Positions 1-32,019 of a DNA stretch of 32,138 nucleotides are shown here, one piece after another; position 1 is the stretch's first letter, and every line of letters starts with the position of its first letter. A program made the translations under genes and the position numbers. Origin of the DNA: a virus; IMG/VR virus record IMGVR_UViG_3300043395_000981, positions 1-32,138 of that record. One strand, 5' to 3'. Below the pieces are notes generated by a model. It saw only the letters and a list, made by a program, of their open reading frames with translations, searched no databases and was not told the DNA's origin.

Positions 1-127
1 GTTATGCGTAATAAGCTATTCAATAGTTTTTCCACAAGAAATACAAGAAACTCGTGTTGAGCTTCCCCATTTATATGTGTCTTCACGATATTCGTGTCCA
101 CCATTTTCTTCGCACCACTTGTATTTC
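1..127. repeat. 127-bp terminal direct repeat, left copy
   Basis: Bases 1-127 are identical to 32012-32138, so the two ends overlap and the unique length is about 32,011 bp. An overlap of exactly 127 bp is what a de Bruijn assembler leaves when it closes a circle with its common largest k-mer of 127. An assembly overlap on a circular or circularly permuted genome is therefore more likely than a true packaged terminal repeat. The repeat cuts through a cassette ORF and an attC-like element, with no cos or packaging features nearby, which fits an arbitrary break. Confidence 0.95.
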
Positions 128-240
128 TTTTCACGTTCTTCCTGCAATAGCTTACTACGCATAACATCAGCTATACGTAATTGCTCTTTGTAGGCATCTA
201 CAATCTTTTTTGCTTCTAAGTATTCTTTTTCTGTTATCAT
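16..240 (-). CDS. Small zinc-finger-like cassette protein, 74 aa
   Basis: Not recognised. The N-terminal half is charged and helical (many E, K and A residues to about residue 40). The C-terminal half holds WCEENGGHEY and a final VSCISCGK, so Cys43, His49, Cys66 and Cys69 could bind one zinc ion. The ATG at 240 lies 45 bp from the preceding minus-strand ORF, with a core sequence of the attC-like family between them. Downstream of its stop lies the full attC-like element that crosses the contig join. It has no promoter of its own that I can see, so it probably depends on readthrough from ninG. A role as a phage accessory protein is inference only. Confidence 0.7.
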   Translation of the reverse strand: MITEKEYLEAKKIVDAYKEQLRIADVMRSKLLQEEREKKYKWCEENGGHEYREDTYKWGSSTRVSCISCGKTIE

Positions 241-261
241 AATTTTTCGTTTTTAAAGTGA

Positions 262-293
262 GCAACTACGTATAGCTGCGTTCCGTTAGCGGC
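262..293. repeat. Short attC-like core / half-site
   Basis: This stretch ends in TTCCGTTAGCGGC, the same CCGTTA core that ends the right arms of the larger elements at 633, 1010 and 32019. It begins with GCAAC. The two ends pair only weakly and the element is far shorter than the other three, so I read it as a decayed or half attC-like site. On the minus strand the stop codon of the ORF ending at 286 lies inside the core (CGCTAAC), as expected when a cassette ORF runs into its recombination site. Confidence 0.4.
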
Positions 294-486
294 TATTTGA
301 CGGACGCTTAAAAGTTTTGCTATTAAACTTATCGTTAATTTGCCTTATTCCTATCTCGTAATCCTTAATTACACTTTCCAATCGGTTAAGTTCGTCCATT
401 ACGGTTTGTATTGCGTCTTTCTCTCCAAGTTGCAACGCTACCATTAAAGCAGCTTTTTCAGTTATTGATATAAATTTCGTTTCCAT
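286..486 (-). CDS. Small helical cassette protein, 66 aa
   Basis: Not recognised. Starting at the ATG at 486 (METKFISITEKAA) gives a compact, mostly helical protein with a heptad-like stretch (MDELNRLESVIKDYEIGIRQ) that could form a short coiled coil, and a basic tail. A longer frame opens at 558, but its extra N-terminus is encoded by the arm of the attC-like element at 500-529, so I reject that start. The ORF sits between two attC-like core sequences and looks like one cassette of the array. Its function is unknown. Confidence 0.6.
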   Translation of the reverse strand: METKFISITEKAALMVALQLGEKDAIQTVMDELNRLESVIKDYEIGIRQINDKFNSKTFKRPSNSR

Positions 487-499
487 TTTGCCAAAAACA

Positions 500-633
500 G
501 CCGCTAACATTATATTGGCAAAAGCAGGGCTGATGTGCTTAAACCAACAGAAGTACACTTATTTAACTTTTGTACTGGCATCGGCAGTAGTACTTCAATT
601 CCCTGCCTTCGCCAATATTTTGCCGTTAGGTGC
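500..633. repeat. attC-like element, 134 bp, best-paired copy
   Basis: The left arm 500-529 (GCCGCTAAC, then ATATTGGCAAAAGCAGGG) is an imperfect inverted repeat of the right arm 601-633 (CCCTGCCTTCGCCAATAT, then GCCGTTAGGTGC). In the inner box 16 of 18 positions pair, the CTAAC/GTTAG cores pair, and the right side carries a 3-nt insertion. About 70 nt lie between the arms, with a further GAAGTAC/GTACTTC pairing. Read on the minus strand, the 5' core is ACCTAAC, which fits the integron consensus RYYYAAC. The 3' core GTTAGCG departs from GTTRRRY. Size and layout recall Vibrio VCR-type attC sites. Confidence 0.7.
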
Positions 634-637
634 AATG

Positions 638-850
638 CTATTCCGACACCTCGACAACCTTTAACTCGTAAGTTTTACCACGATATTGAAAACGTAACTT
701 TTCATCCAGTTGCAAAAGATGTTGAGCTACAGCACCAACAGCAGTATCGGTAACATCATGTTTTACATTGCCCCAAGTTCCGTTTTTTAGAACTTTACCT
801 GCAAAAATCTTACTCGTTAAAGGTGAGCAACCTACTTTGAAATCTGACAT
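638..850 (-). CDS. Small cassette protein resembling DUF7446, 70 aa
   Basis: From the ATG at 850 (MSDFKVGCSPLTSKIFAGKV) the protein has the pattern KVGCSPLTSKIF...GTWGNVKHDVTD and ends in a beta-rich segment (FQYRGKTYELKVVEV). This matches my memory of a small phage family (DUF7446) of unknown biochemical role; I could not check it. A longer frame opens at 886, but the extra residues read into the arm of the neighbouring attC-like element at 876. The gene is flanked on both sides by attC-like elements (500-633 and 876-1010), the clearest cassette unit in the window. Confidence 0.75.
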   Translation of the reverse strand: MSDFKVGCSPLTSKIFAGKVLKNGTWGNVKHDVTDTAVGAVAQHLLQLDEKLRFQYRGKTYELKVVEVSE

Positions 851-875
851 ATTATTTGAATTTGTGAGAAGCACT

Positions 876-1010
876 GCCTCTAACAAGGTATTGCCAAAAG
901 CAGGGTATTCTCGGTTAATTAATCGTTTGTACTTCTATTGGGCATTTGTGCAAGGCTGACATGGAGTGCATCTATTTCCCCAACTTCTTAAAGCCCCGAC
1001 CGTTATCGGC
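876..1010. repeat. attC-like element, 135 bp
   Basis: The left arm (876-905: GCCTCTAAC then TATTGCCAAAAGCAGGG) is nearly the same as that of the element at 500: CTAAC, a short variable spacer, TATTGNCAAAAGCAGGG. The right end is GACCGTTATCGGC (998-1010), sharing CCGTTA with the other right ends. The left and right arms pair poorly in the inner box, so this copy may be decayed. Its length, 135 bp, is within 1 bp of the other two full elements. Confidence 0.6.
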
Positions 1011-1014
1011 AACC

Positions 1015-1425
1015 CTAAGACAACACCTCCGAAATTTGTTCGTAATAGACAAACTTCCATTTCTTTGAATGTTCCTGAAAGCACATTACACCACCAGTAT
1101 TAGGTTTCACATACTTTACTAATAGTTGCCTTGCTGTGTGCATTTTTGATTTAATATTTTTTCCAACCAAAGAATGAAGGTATTGGTTAATTTTTGTCAA
1201 AGAATAACTTTGATCAAATGGGTTGGACTCAACAACCACTTTGTTTACGGTTGGAGTTGTAGCGTGTTCTTCACACCTATACTGCCATTCTTGTTTAGCT
1301 GTTGGGCTATCTTTTTTAGCTTTGTTTTTTAGCTTAACTTGCATTGTCGCTATGTTAGGGCACTTGCAATTATTACCGCTTTTTTTATCGCAGTAATGAA
1401 GTTTTTGAATGTTTGCTATGTTCAT
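1015..1425 (-). CDS. Cys/His-containing cassette protein, 136 aa
   Basis: Not recognised. The N-terminal third carries Cys12, Cys20, Cys22 and Cys50 plus His53 (KLHYCDKK, NCKCPN, YRCEEHA), the layout of a zinc-binding module. The rest is lysine-rich with aromatic beta-like segments near the end (KWKFVYYEQ). The ATG at 1425 overlaps the stop of the 31-aa ORF upstream by ATGA, so translation is probably coupled. Its stop codon lies about 5 bp from the attC-like core at 1002-1010. It is the first full ORF of the array after ninG. Nucleic-acid binding is possible but unproven. Confidence 0.7.
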   Translation of the reverse strand: MNIANIQKLHYCDKKSGNNCKCPNIATMQVKLKNKAKKDSPTAKQEWQYRCEEHATTPTVNKVVVESNPFDQSYSLTKINQYLHSLVGKNIKSKMHTARQLLVKYVKPNTGGVMCFQEHSKKWKFVYYEQISEVLS

Positions 1426-1517
1426 TTTATTGATTTTAAGTTATTAATTCCGAAAGAAGGGCAGCCGATAACAGCACCTAAACAAGATGGCGGGGTTTCT
1501 TTTTTCAAATCTTTCAT
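1422..1517 (-). CDS. 31-aa linking ORF between ninG and the array
   Basis: MKDLKKETPPSCLGAVIGCP begins this 31-residue peptide. The start codon overlaps the ninG stop (ATGA at 1514-1517) and its stop overlaps the next start (ATGA at 1422-1425). Two exact ATGA junctions in a row argue that it is translated as part of a coupled operon. The codons for AVIGC contain GTTATCGGC, the core sequence found at attC-like ends, so the peptide may be a by-product of a cassette inserted next to ninG. No function can be assigned. Confidence 0.55.
   Translation of the reverse strand: MKDLKKETPPSCLGAVIGCPSFGINNLKSIK
1464..1495. repeat. Unpaired attC-like arm at the ninG edge of the array
   Basis: GCCGATAAC (1464-1472) followed by AGCACCTAAACAAGATGGCGGGG has the same plan as the left arms at 500 (GCCGCTAAC...GCAGGG) and 876. 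No matching right arm is found before ninG. It could be the surviving half of a site or the place where the first cassette joined the phage operon. Confidence 0.4.
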
Positions 1518-2281: not shown

Positions 2282-3021
2282 TGGTCCTCGTTTTTAAGTT
2301 GTTCCGATACTTCCATAAATCTGCACGACAAGTAATCGTTGACCGCGAAAAATTCCATGTCGTTGTAAATTCTGAAAATAACACCTCCGTTTTCCCTTGT
2401 CGGTAGTTTATCCCATTCTTGTAAAAATAATTGACCTAAATCCATTTTCCGTTCGGTTTTGACGGGTTCGGGCGTCTCTTTGATTGAAAGTTTGTCGCTC
2501 ACCTCCTTCAAAATTTCATAAACTGGACCCGTTTGGACCACTTCGTAGATGTTCGCGGCGTGTTCGTTGTCTCGTTTGCGTGCGATGACCTTATCTCGCT
2601 GCTCACAAAACAAGCGCAGCATCGCAAAAATTTTGGTTTGATCCATCGAATATTCGATCTTGCCCAGTTGCAAGCTGCGGGCCATCTTGAAAAACACTGC
2701 GTAGTCCTCAATCCGTAGCATGTAGAACTCATTTGATTCGACAAGGTCTTCAGCACAGGTAACGATCTGATCACTTGACATGTTGACGTGAAGATTCAGC
2801 ACCGATGTGAATTCACTCAACAACCTCGTGAGCATCGTAATGGTCGTTGGCTTGTCGATCTTGCGAAGACGGGCGATACTCGGTGTTTTGGCTTCCAAAC
2901 TTTGCTCTAAGGATGTCGGAAACTTCGGCTGTCCGCACAGCATGCTGTTGATGTACTTTTGAACCTGCGCCACTTCCGGTGACGGACTTGCACTCGGCAA
3001 GGATGTTTGATAATTGTCCAT
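2278..3021 (-). CDS. DUF6633-like replication-module protein, 247 aa
   Basis: The middle of the protein (about residues 45-150) has the pattern I associate with DUF6633 of Bacteroidetes phages and mobile elements: PSIARLRK, MLTRLLSEF, MSSDQIVTCAEDLV, DYAVFFKMARSL, GKIEYSMDQTKIFAMLRLFCEQRD. Its position right after the initiator suggests a helicase-loader or replisome role, but no ATPase motif is present and this is inference. The C-terminal part is acidic. The start at 3021 gives a 209-bp out-of-frame overlap with the initiator gene. Later ATGs (2943, 2835) would shorten the overlap, but the conserved-looking region begins before 2835, so part of the overlap is probably real. Confidence 0.65.
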   Translation of the reverse strand: MDNYQTSLPSASPSPEVAQVQKYINSMLCGQPKFPTSLEQSLEAKTPSIARLRKIDKPTTITMLTRLLSEFTSVLNLHVNMSSDQIVTCAEDLVESNEFYMLRIEDYAVFFKMARSLQLGKIEYSMDQTKIFAMLRLFCEQRDKVIARKRDNEHAANIYEVVQTGPVYEILKEVSDKLSIKETPEPVKTERKMDLGQLFLQEWDKLPTRENGGVIFRIYNDMEFFAVNDYLSCRFMEVSEQLKNEDQ

Positions 3022-3850
3022 TTATTTGTGTTAATTTGGTGATTTTTTGATTGAATTGTGACCACTTGCCGAAGTTTCCAAGGACGTACTTCCACGCGCT
3101 CATGATCTTCTCGTGGTCGGTGTTGTTAGATACCACGTTGTCGCGCTTGTGCCTTTCGTTCACTTGGTAAAGTAGCTGCCTTGCGATCATTGACAAGGCA
3201 CCGCGCTCCGATGCGTTGGCGTAATATCCGATCGAATGAATTTTAGTCAGGTGTTCGGACCAAGCCGATTCCATTTCCACCACCGGCCATTCACTTTTCT
3301 TTTTTGGCGCAACTTTTTTCTTTTCTGAATTTTCAGTTTTTTGAAAAGTTGGTTCTTCATGGGGTGGGGTTGGATCAGATTCTAATTTTTTACCCTCCAC
3401 ATCAGAGCCAAATTTTTTTGGCTCAATAATGTTTGTGGTTTGTGGTTTGTGGTTTGTGGTTTTAGAATATGTCAAGTGCTTCGTCAAGTGGTTTGCAAGT
3501 GCTTTGTCAAGTGCTTTGTCAAGTGCTTTGTCAAATTTTGATAGGGCAATAATATTACACTGATACTGATTTCTTGATTTGACAACGATTTCAACGAATC
3601 CCCACTCGACCAACTCGTCGAAGACTTTTTTGTACGTGTTATGGCTTTTGCAACTCATGCCCGCCATGCACTCGGTCGATGTGATCTGAAACTGCGGAAC
3701 CCATCCGAGCCGGTTATTGATCTCGATGAGGAAAACGTACAGGGCCGTGTGACTAGATGTAACCTTGCCGCAGTTCTCAAAAGCAAAATCAAACCATTGT
3801 CGGGTCAAGTCGTATCCGTTTGGTTTTTTCATGGGCATAAAAAAATCCAT
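2813..3850 (-). CDS. Phage replication initiator, winged-helix type
   Basis: 345 aa. Residues about 10-110 (YDLTRQWFDFAF..., TALYVFLIEINNRLGW, MSCKSHNTYKKVFDELVEWG) look like the winged-helix domain of phage initiators that bind origin repeats. The middle is low complexity: KALDKALDKALA and NHKPQTTN are encoded by tandem DNA repeats at 3431-3535, then a Lys/Pro/Glu linker. The C-terminal half (about 190-280) is helical and may contact the loader or helicase, as in lambda O or DnaD-like proteins. ATGs also exist at 3838 and 3832. The first, at 3850, lies inside an inverted repeat, so the true start is open. The gene has its own -7 box at 3941. Confidence 0.75.
   Translation of the reverse strand: MDFFMPMKKPNGYDLTRQWFDFAFENCGKVTSSHTALYVFLIEINNRLGWVPQFQITSTECMAGMSCKSHNTYKKVFDELVEWGFVEIVVKSRNQYQCNIIALSKFDKALDKALDKALANHLTKHLTYSKTTNHKPQTTNIIEPKKFGSDVEGKKLESDPTPPHEEPTFQKTENSEKKKVAPKKKSEWPVVEMESAWSEHLTKIHSIGYYANASERGALSMIARQLLYQVNERHKRDNVVSNNTDHEKIMSAWKYVLGNFGKWSQFNQKITKLTQINGQLSNILAECKSVTGSGAGSKVHQQHAVRTAEVSDILRAKFGSQNTEYRPSSQDRQANDHYDAHEVVE
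3431..3535. repeat. Iteron-like tandem repeats, candidate replication origin
   Basis: Two repeat blocks lie inside the initiator gene. At 3431-3458 GTTTGTG occurs four times head to tail. At 3471-3529 a 12-bp unit GTCAAGTGCTTT occurs five times (two copies with one change each, one copy 11 nt long), plus a partial copy GTCAA. An AT-rich tract with T and A runs lies at about 3298-3350. Iterons inside the initiator gene beside an AT-rich tract is the arrangement of the lambda origin within gene O. Confidence 0.6.
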
Positions 3851-31094: not shown

Positions 31095-31115
31095 GTGTAA
31101 TTTTTTTTGCAATAT

Positions 31116-31556
31116 ATGAAAAGAATCAAAGTTTCCGAAGATTTCTACCTCGACGAGTTCATCGACCCCGTAATTTACGCAAAATGGGGCGAAAGATCAA
31201 TCCAATTCATCGATCACAGGATAATCCTTGCAGCGCAGTTCGTTCGTGAAAAAACGGGTCGTTCGGTGACCATAAACAACTGGGCAAAAAAAGGACGTTT
31301 CAAAGAAAGTGGCCTTCGAAGATTTGACACGCGCACCGGTGCTTCAATGTCACAACACAAATTTGGCCGTGCCATCGACATAAAGGTTTCGGGAATGACG
31401 CCGCGTGAGGTTTTTGCCATTGTCAAGGCGCACGAAGATTACTTGATCGAGAACCAAATAATCACGACTATCGAATCTTTATCCATGACACCAACGTGGC
31501 TGCACCTTGATTGCAGATTTACTGGCCTTGATCGGTTTTTAATTGTGGAGCCGTGA
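31116..31556 (+). CDS. M15-family peptidase endolysin
   Basis: 146 aa from the ATG at 31116 (MKRIKVSEDFYLDEFIDPVI). The metallopeptidase signature is complete: SQHKFGRAIDIK gives the zinc ligands His81 and Asp88, and TPTWLHLD gives His130, with a possible catalytic Glu near 120. M15 enzymes cut the D,D or L,D bond of peptidoglycan stem peptides. Length is normal for a single-domain enzyme with no cell-wall-binding part, as is common against Gram-negative hosts. It should act after the holin opens the membrane. Confidence 0.88.
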   Translation: MKRIKVSEDFYLDEFIDPVIYAKWGERSIQFIDHRIILAAQFVREKTGRSVTINNWAKKGRFKESGLRRFDTRTGASMSQHKFGRAIDIKVSGMTPREVFAIVKAHEDYLIENQIITTIESLSMTPTWLHLDCRFTGLDRFLIVEP

Positions 31557-31608: not shown

Positions 31609-31670
31609 TTGTTTGTGTGTTTTACCCTCCACTGGGCGCGGGTGAAAGCACTATAAACTTGCGTCTATTT

Positions 31671-31685
31671 ACGAGTTAGTTGCCA
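31671..31685. repeat. Unpaired attC-like core at the far edge of the array
   Basis: ACGAGTTAGTTGCC carries the GTTAG core and GCC end seen in attC-like arms. On the minus strand the stop of the broken ORF (TAA at 31678-31676) lies in the core (CTAAC), as for the ORF at 286. No matching partner arm was found down to the endolysin gene. I see nothing else definite in 31609-31670. Confidence 0.35.
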
Positions 31686-31973
31686 TTTTTAGACAACACC
31701 TTAAACGTTGGATAATTCTTTGGAATATTCCACCCTAATCCTAAATAGACAGAGTAATAACCCCAGCAAACACCAAGTCCACGCACTTTAATAATTTCGC
31801 AAGTTACACACACGCCAAACAAATAAGGAGTTAATGCGAAATCTTCCTTGTTTGTCCTTGTATCTTGAAAGCCACCAATAAAACGGCAACTAACACGGGT
31901 TTGGCAAAATAGCCGTTTCAGTGCTTTTATTTGACTTTTGTTCTTCTATCATCATTTGTGCTGTATTAGACAT
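31676..31973 (-). pseudogene. Decapitated or frameshifted cassette ORF
   Basis: A frame with no ATG is open from 31945 to the stop at 31676, and its translation looks like a real protein (CRFIGGFQDTRTNKEDFALT PYLFGVCVTCEI, VCWGYYSVYLGLGWNIPKNY). The only nearby ATG, at 31973, lies in another frame and gives just 27 residues (MSNTAQMMIEEQKSNKSTET) before a stop at 31890. Either an indel broke the gene, or recombination at the attC-like site (31885-32019) removed its start. The family is not recognised. Confidence 0.5.
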
Positions 31974-32019
31974 TTGTAATTCTATTTCGGCTACTTCGGC
32001 AATGCTTTACCGTTATGCG
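31885..32019. repeat. attC-like element, 135 bp, across the contig join
   Basis: The left arm (31885-31915: GGCAACTAAC then TTTGGCAAAATAGCCG) pairs with the right arm (31988-32019: CGGCTACTTCGGCAATGC then CCGTTATGCG). Twelve of 15 inner positions are complementary and the CTAAC/GTTA cores are at the ends. The loop is about 72 nt. Length matches the elements at 500 and 876. The contig join (base 32012 = base 1) falls in its right core. Confidence 0.6.

Follow-up and report, generated by a model that had tools for sequence, protein, structure and literature searches.

The locus considered here raises the question of whether an imperfect hairpin lying between small genes of a viral genome (500–633), proposed in the first-pass annotation to be an attC recombination site of an integron, is indeed such a site, and what the array of genes around it would then represent. 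The window, that is, the whole stretch of 32,138 nucleotides analysed, comes from an IMG/VR virus record, and all knowledge of the phage derives from metagenomic assembly. Because its first 127 bases are identical to the last 127, the window is the complete, circular-mapping genome of a tailed phage (32,011 bp plus a 127-bp end overlap), which contains genes for terminase, portal, tape-measure, RecT, and NinG (Pfam, PHROG). No host is on record, and Bacteroidota are inferred as hosts from the family to which the attC and attI sequences belong. The best explanation of the locus, which we hold with considerable confidence, is an attI-like site followed by five mobile cassettes with inverted genes, belonging to a mirror-oriented phage pool and handled in trans by a recombinase of the host, with recombination itself inferred. 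Elsewhere in the genome, a 12-nt tandem repeat, TGTCAAGTGCTT, was observed at 3470–3542 within the ORF 2813–3850 (− strand), where it encodes ALDKALDKALDK.

The array begins at 31,660, crosses the origin, and ends at 1,495; it contains short minus-strand ORFs and lies between a peptidase gene (31107–31556, + strand) on one side and ninG on the other. Read along the + strand, an attI-like site is followed by five cassettes, each formed by a body and then an attC, the last attC being truncated at ninG (Table 1). Reading the array in the direction of its genes, which would place a "truncated last attC" at its right end, was also considered and was dropped because the conserved boundary found there, TAAC followed by TYGTAAATANACGCA, is the Bacteroidota attI motif on the other strand.

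Table 1. Features of the cassette array and the adjoining gene, in array order along the + strand (R1, covariance model; positions refer to the window).
Feature	Position	Strand	Description
attI-like site	31660–31677	+	TGCGTCTATTTACGAG, then crossover, then TT; crossover between G31675 and T31676
Cassette 1 (attI-proximal)	31676–32012	+	body 31676–31894 with short minus-strand open frame, plus attC C
attC C	31888–32018	+	R1 87.2 bits, E 1.6e-20; spans the origin (32012–32018 = 1–7)
Cassette 2	2–285	+	minus-strand ORF 16–162 (48 aa; frame open to 240), plus attC D
attC D	159–291	+	R1 45.5 bits, E 8.8e-10; fold z −6.5/−4.6
Cassette 3	286–625	+	minus-strand ORF 286–486 (66 aa, no confident family), plus attC A
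attC A	502–631	+	R1 92.3 bits, E 7.9e-22; site first annotated at 500–633
Cassette 4	626–1002	+	minus-strand ORF 638–850 (70 aa, DUF7446; Pfam PF24233 E 2.8e-17), plus attC B
attC B	878–1008	+	R1 53.2 bits, E 9e-12; right arm diverged, degenerate
Cassette 5	1003–1495	+	minus-strand ORF 1015–1425 (136 aa, no family), plus truncated attC arm 1464–1495 beside ninG
ninG	1514–2068	−	adjoins the array, co-directional with cassette genes; Pfam NinG E 2.9e-49; PHROG 171

The sites were recognized with a covariance model (R1) trained on eight bacterial attC sites only and aligned over 133 columns. The structure of this alignment comprises 20 pairs, with 94.4% of cells paired and changes on both sides in 11 pairs; none of 500 shuffles equals it, and slid structures collapse. 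In the window, R1 detects exactly four sites, with E-values between 8e-22 and 9e-10 and all of them on the + strand, and, leaving out attC A read backwards (17.7 bits), the next-best match reaches 14.4 bits. All four fulfil the attC criterion of R''/R' cores, complementary L''/L' arms, and unequal spacers, and one of them, attC D, lies beyond the three described previously (500–633, 876–1010, and 31885–32019). A separate bipartite weight matrix assigns 33.7 bits to attC A and 24.6 to attC C, the best score in 40 Markov genomes being 7.7. Moreover, R1 has matches in 162 of 395 Bacteroidota genomes sampled (E <= 1e-4), with long arrays. A blastn search of attC A against an isolate-phage collection gave no match, and the only isolate phage scored with R1, Polaribacter P12002L, yielded marginal values of 19 and 16 bits, none of them convincing.

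By its sequence, the hairpin at 500–633 is a genuine integron recombination site, its recombination being inferred, and the covariance model together with comparative evidence upholds the attC reading for the other two intervals that had been put forward. The inner arms do match at 16 of 18 positions (ATATTGGCAAAAGCAGGG, L'', 512–529, against the reverse complement of CCCTGCCTTCGCCAATAT, L', 601–618), and the conserved cores correspond to GCTAAC and GTTAGG as the outer cores of attC A. The 3-nt asymmetry reported between the arms is also real, but it does not consist of an unpaired insertion; instead, the spacers differ in length, the one that follows R'' having 3 nt (ATT) and the one that precedes R' having 6 (TTTGCC), an asymmetry that is likewise seen in most of the bacterial sites aligned. 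The suggestion that unpaired bases of attC direct strand choice is plausible, being argued from known integron biology and without strand data. The string common to two left arms, CAAAAGCAGGG, occurs in the window only at 519–529 and 895–905, no T tract follows, and the unit does not seem to be a known non-mobile repeat, since it has no Rfam match and sits at different positions in other phages.

Folding had been proposed as a check, with failure against shuffled controls as a refutation. With minimum-energy folding under DNA parameters, 500–633 performs better than shuffles (z about −1.9) and attC D clearly so, whereas 876–1010 and 31885–32019 fold no better than shuffled sequences. Minimum-energy folding with these parameters is a poor test for attC and was uninformative at two of the four sites; the failure of both intervals was overruled because the covariance model and the comparative evidence support them.

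A hallmark of integron cassettes is that their start, TTRRRY behind the crossover G, can pair with the R'' of the attC they carry. This hallmark is fulfilled in four of the five cassettes, over lengths ranging from 9 bp to 19 of 20 positions. The start of cassette 2, GTTATGCGTAGTAAGCTATT, is complementary at 19 of 20 positions, that of cassette 1, GTTAGTTGCC, pairs through 10 exact bp plus 4, that of cassette 3 through 10 bp and then 3 beyond one mismatch, and the start and R'' of cassette 5 (GTTATCGGC/GCCGATAAC) are complementary over 9 bp. The match is only partial for cassette 4 in the window, and it is closer in a relative (L331), where it is exact over the core. The truncated arm of cassette 5, ATAACAGCACCTAAACAAGATGGCGGGG, resembles by eye the sequence ATAACAGCAGTTTGGCAAAATGGCGGG in Arcicella (L109). 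Viral relatives of the cassette 5 protein were searched for and none were found, and the searches made for cassettes 1 and 5 returned no known relatives.

At its other end, the array is delimited by a motif, TAACTYGTAAATANACGCA, that likewise forms the end of the array in many otherwise different viral contigs and that reads on the other strand as TGCGTNTATTTACRAG and then TT, with a gene start usually within about 110 nt. Scanning 84,980 genomes for TAACTYGTAAATANACGCA yielded 19 matches, mostly in Bacteroidota, and in several of these a gene and, after it, an attC-bearing cassette end follow the motif. A tyrosine recombinase gene lies roughly 80–310 nt upstream of the motif in Arcicella, Rhabdobacter, a Sphingobacteriales MAG, and a Flavobacteriaceae MAG. 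At every locus where the motif was found near attC (11 viral and 8 bacterial), the two share a strand. From its position next to recombinase genes, the motif is inferred to be the attI of a Bacteroidota integron platform, and the site of the window qualifies as attI by its match to this motif, its function being inferred only. The other component of a complete integron, an intI gene beside attI, is missing, as no PF00589 match exists anywhere in the complete window genome.

The closest solved structure to the Bacteroidota recombinase is the integron integrase of Vibrio cholerae (2A3V, E 1e-32). Unlike this integrase, the Bacteroidota enzymes lack about 42 residues, which appear as an alignment gap, and possess an N-terminal extension of about 85 residues; in addition, an ssb gene stands beside the recombinase gene in the two cases checked. 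They score 165–209 bits with TIGR02249, under the cut-off of 265, and they do not contain the additional domain specific to IntI, so that neither criterion of the IntI family is fulfilled. The ssb gene directly precedes the recombinase gene in Arcicella (L133, ssb 915–1259) and Rhabdobacter (L136, 300–641), and a fragmentary SSB-like ORF lies before the recombinase in the Sphingobacteriales MAG (L121), an adjacency which suggests that single-stranded DNA handling is coupled to cassette recombination. The recombinases of L131 (414–1910, −), L132 (1020–2873, −), and L133 (1249–2319, +) carry an N-terminal module, present once to three times, that has a motif of the G..WS...K.W.V type and no Pfam model match. 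Judged by eye, this module resembles the HARP annealing domain, and a HARP-like module would suit a single-stranded, folded attC substrate. The interval between recombinase and attI in L121 (+ strand, about 1350–1715) contains several near-identical palindromic repeats, AATACAATAAAACGCAATGCGTATTTTGTATT, and the attI unit is duplicated there, 44 nt apart; both could possibly be regulatory or accessory integrase sites. Two attI-like sites were also observed in some Bacteroidota contigs (G027:C404, with L154 and L109; G321:C44, with L156), and thus one genome may run several platforms. Such a platform, with a recombinase devoid of the IntI-specific segment and with ssb beside it where checked, would likely escape a search based on the integrase.

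Comparison with other phages indicates that the cassettes come and go as units. A NinG-based search retrieved relatives (L003–L008) that each carry different small genes in the slot after ninG, and in L003–L006 and L008 these genes end at a boundary resembling TAAC and then T.GTAA. L003 is 87–92% identical to the window on both near flanks, with alignments ending at window positions 31646 and 1510, and lacks all five cassettes. A strictly empty phage slot was searched for among the relatives and not found. In L003, L005, L006, and L008, the slot after ninG is occupied by a single unrelated gene whose 3' end coincides with the attI boundary, no attC being detected, and these genes are perhaps fixed former cassettes that have lost their attC. 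It was also observed that the start of the slot gene overlaps or adjoins the ninG stop in several of these four phages.

The DUF7446 gene of cassette 4 is present in 12 further viral loci. The segment 625–959 of the window is common to L331, L332, and L336 at 90.7% and begins at the crossover G; on its attI side it is joined to attC A in the window and to an attI-like sequence, GGACAAATATGCGAG, which differs from that of the window, in L331. Since the common unit consists of the body plus the attC 5' of the gene, the polarity of the unit is fixed without recourse to a model. The presence of cassette 4 in L331 and the absence of all five cassettes from L003 fulfil the expectation that cassettes are gained or lost as units at a crossover between G and TT. 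In addition, attC A is 94.6% identical in a phage contig (L108) in which it adjoins a different body. Two further observations concern the distribution of cassette genes: the DUF7446 gene of cassette 4 has a counterpart of 76% identity in a viral contig of 324,744 bases (L334), which suggests that this gene reaches jumbo-phage-sized genomes, and a phage contig of 32,610 bases (L107) contains several attC sites and a cassette gene that by eye is PAPS-reductase-like.

In known integrons, the cassette gene is typically, though not absolutely, co-directional with the attC located at its 3' end. This arrangement is not found in the window, where all cassette genes are on the − strand and the attI and attC sites are on the + strand. 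In a first set of cassettes, scored by the longest ORF in the body, gene and attC share a direction in all 15 bacterial cassettes, and the gene opposes attC in 43 of the 44 viral cassettes. A larger set, which overlaps the first, was extended by a pattern blind to gene direction and scored with nhmmer (46 viral and 25 bacterial loci); in it, bacteria (Bacteroidota) show 53 forward and 0 reversed genes, whereas viral contigs show 73 reversed, 2 forward, and 2 ambiguous, that is, 73 of 75 scorable genes reversed (Fisher p 4e-34, uncorrected for relatedness). No locus of the larger set has attCs on mixed strands. As for the two forward viral genes, the product of one (L187; 360 aa) reads as a subunit of a restriction system, and we infer that this contig may be bacterial rather than viral; the other is a 41-codon frame (L196) that is probably due to chance.

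The orientation bears directly on the possibility that the phage merely captured a piece of a bacterial array by homologous or illegitimate recombination, for instance through the phage RecT or NinG, and that this piece is inert for want of an integrase. The absence of an integrase from the window, the degeneration of one attC and the truncation of another would fit such an origin, as would the occurrence of attC A with a different body in L108, expected from homologous exchange between sites, and Qi et al. (PMC9892861) consider that integron components may have reached phages through off-target homologous or illegitimate recombination. However, none of the 53 scorable bacterial cassettes has the phage orientation, so simple capture does not yield the phage arrays. 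Moreover, cassette 4 is joined exactly at the crossover to different partners, namely attC A in the window and, in L331, an attI-like site, and phages whose flanking sequences differ retain the attI motif at one and the same end of the array. Capture is an unlikely origin of this array.

Phage attC sites mostly cluster apart from bacterial ones, and DNA methyltransferases are abundant among the viral cassettes. On a tree of 150 attCs (70 viral and 80 bacterial), host and virus labels change 13 times, compared with a mean of 50 (minimum 42) when labels are shuffled, which means that the pools are largely, not fully, separate. Matches to N6_N4 methyltransferases were obtained for 11 of 72 viral cassette ORFs and matches to C5 methyltransferases for 4 (15 of 72 together), in addition to several other methylase matches. 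In 53 bacterial cassette ORFs, N6_N4_Mtase was matched once, and others match AAA, caspase, S_4TM, AIPR, PIN, and SocA domains. A contrast between defence in bacteria and counter-defence in phages can be inferred from these names, and from family names only.

According to the mechanism that we favour, the tyrosine recombinase of a host integron platform would act in trans on the attI and attC sites of the phage during infection, and circular cassettes would be inserted or removed at the G/TT crossover. The genes, inverted relative to those of host cassettes, would be read towards attI and, consequently, could be transcribed from the phage operon ending at ninG rather than from a promoter on the attI side. 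That their transcription comes from ninG is inferred, and so is the selection for reading from the ninG operon that could have given rise to the mirror orientation. In this lineage, the outcome would be a mirror-oriented, methyltransferase-rich phage cassette pool swapped at a fixed site beside ninG. The attC family, the attI motif, the lack of a recombinase gene, the presence or absence of cassettes, their boundaries, the mobility of cassette 4, and the inversion are read from the genomes themselves; the enzyme in trans, the transcription, the selection, and the counter-defence function are inferences. The cassettes could alternatively be mobilised by a tyrosine recombinase encoded by the phage and not by the host, and a PF00589 protein is in fact encoded in 2 of 27 viral records searched (L128 and L129); nevertheless, none was found in the complete window genome or in most attC-bearing records searched, many of which are fragments, and this reading appears very improbable. 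Finally, that the sites are non-mobile intergenic palindromes, such as terminators or REP-like elements, which resemble attC by chance can practically be discarded, for it has in its favour only that the minimum-energy folds of two of the four sites are no better than shuffled and is opposed by the covariance E-values (8e-22 to 9e-10) with compensatory changes and by the cassette-specific complementarity without T tract or Rfam match, a model built from bacterial sites alone having ruled it out.

Phage attC clusters without an integrase (CALINs) are already known (Qi et al. 2023, PMC9892861); five of six phage attC sites tested in that study were recombined by IntI1, and the arrays had the typical orientation, one phage having attC sites of divergent directions. 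Like those CALINs, the array of the window has attC-bounded phage cassettes, DNA methyltransferase cargo in its pool, and no integrase gene. Unlike them (PMC9892861), it is closed by an attI-like site, its relatives have a conserved landing site beside ninG, its attC sites belong to the Bacteroidota-integron family, and genes are inverted with respect to attC across dozens of viral contigs. With sedentary chromosomal integrons of the Vibrio VCR type, the phage arrays share an attI, the G/TT crossover, R''-L''-L'-R' sites, and cassette starts that pair with their own R'', whereas the gene is on the other strand and attC is at the gene 5' end. IntI1 can insert cassettes at genomic attG sites, outside integrons, and in the phages cassettes likewise land outside integrons; however, attG is a generic genomic site and the phage site is a near-exact copy of the Bacteroidota attI motif. 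Treponema integrons depart from standard integron polarity in that the integrase gene is reversed. In contrast to these reverse integrons, it is the gene inside each cassette that is reversed in the phage arrays, which have no integrase; the term "reverse integron" has been used in PMC4909258 and PMC6557892. Within Bacteroidetes proper, the single complete integron reported by IntegronFinder 2.0 (PMC9024848) is that of Salinibacter ruber. In the open-licence PMC papers searched, we found neither phage arrays with attI and mirror orientation nor the Bacteroidota recombinase platform described; preprints and subscription journals were outside this scope, and priority is, thus, unsettled.

Integrons are usually viewed as bacterial gene-capture machines and phage attC clusters as occasional acquisitions. 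We consider it reasonably likely, with less assurance than for the locus itself, that phages of Bacteroidota possess landing sites resembling attI together with a mirror-oriented cassette pool of their own, swapped between phages by host integron recombinases, and that gene orientation would function as a code which, at the same recombination sites, separates a phage pool (counter-defence, read from the phage operon) from a bacterial pool (defence and other functions, read from the attI side). If phages do keep an attI and a dedicated mirror pool, one machine would serve both sides of the phage–host arms race, and a single exchangeable slot could explain the renewal of phage anti-restriction genes.
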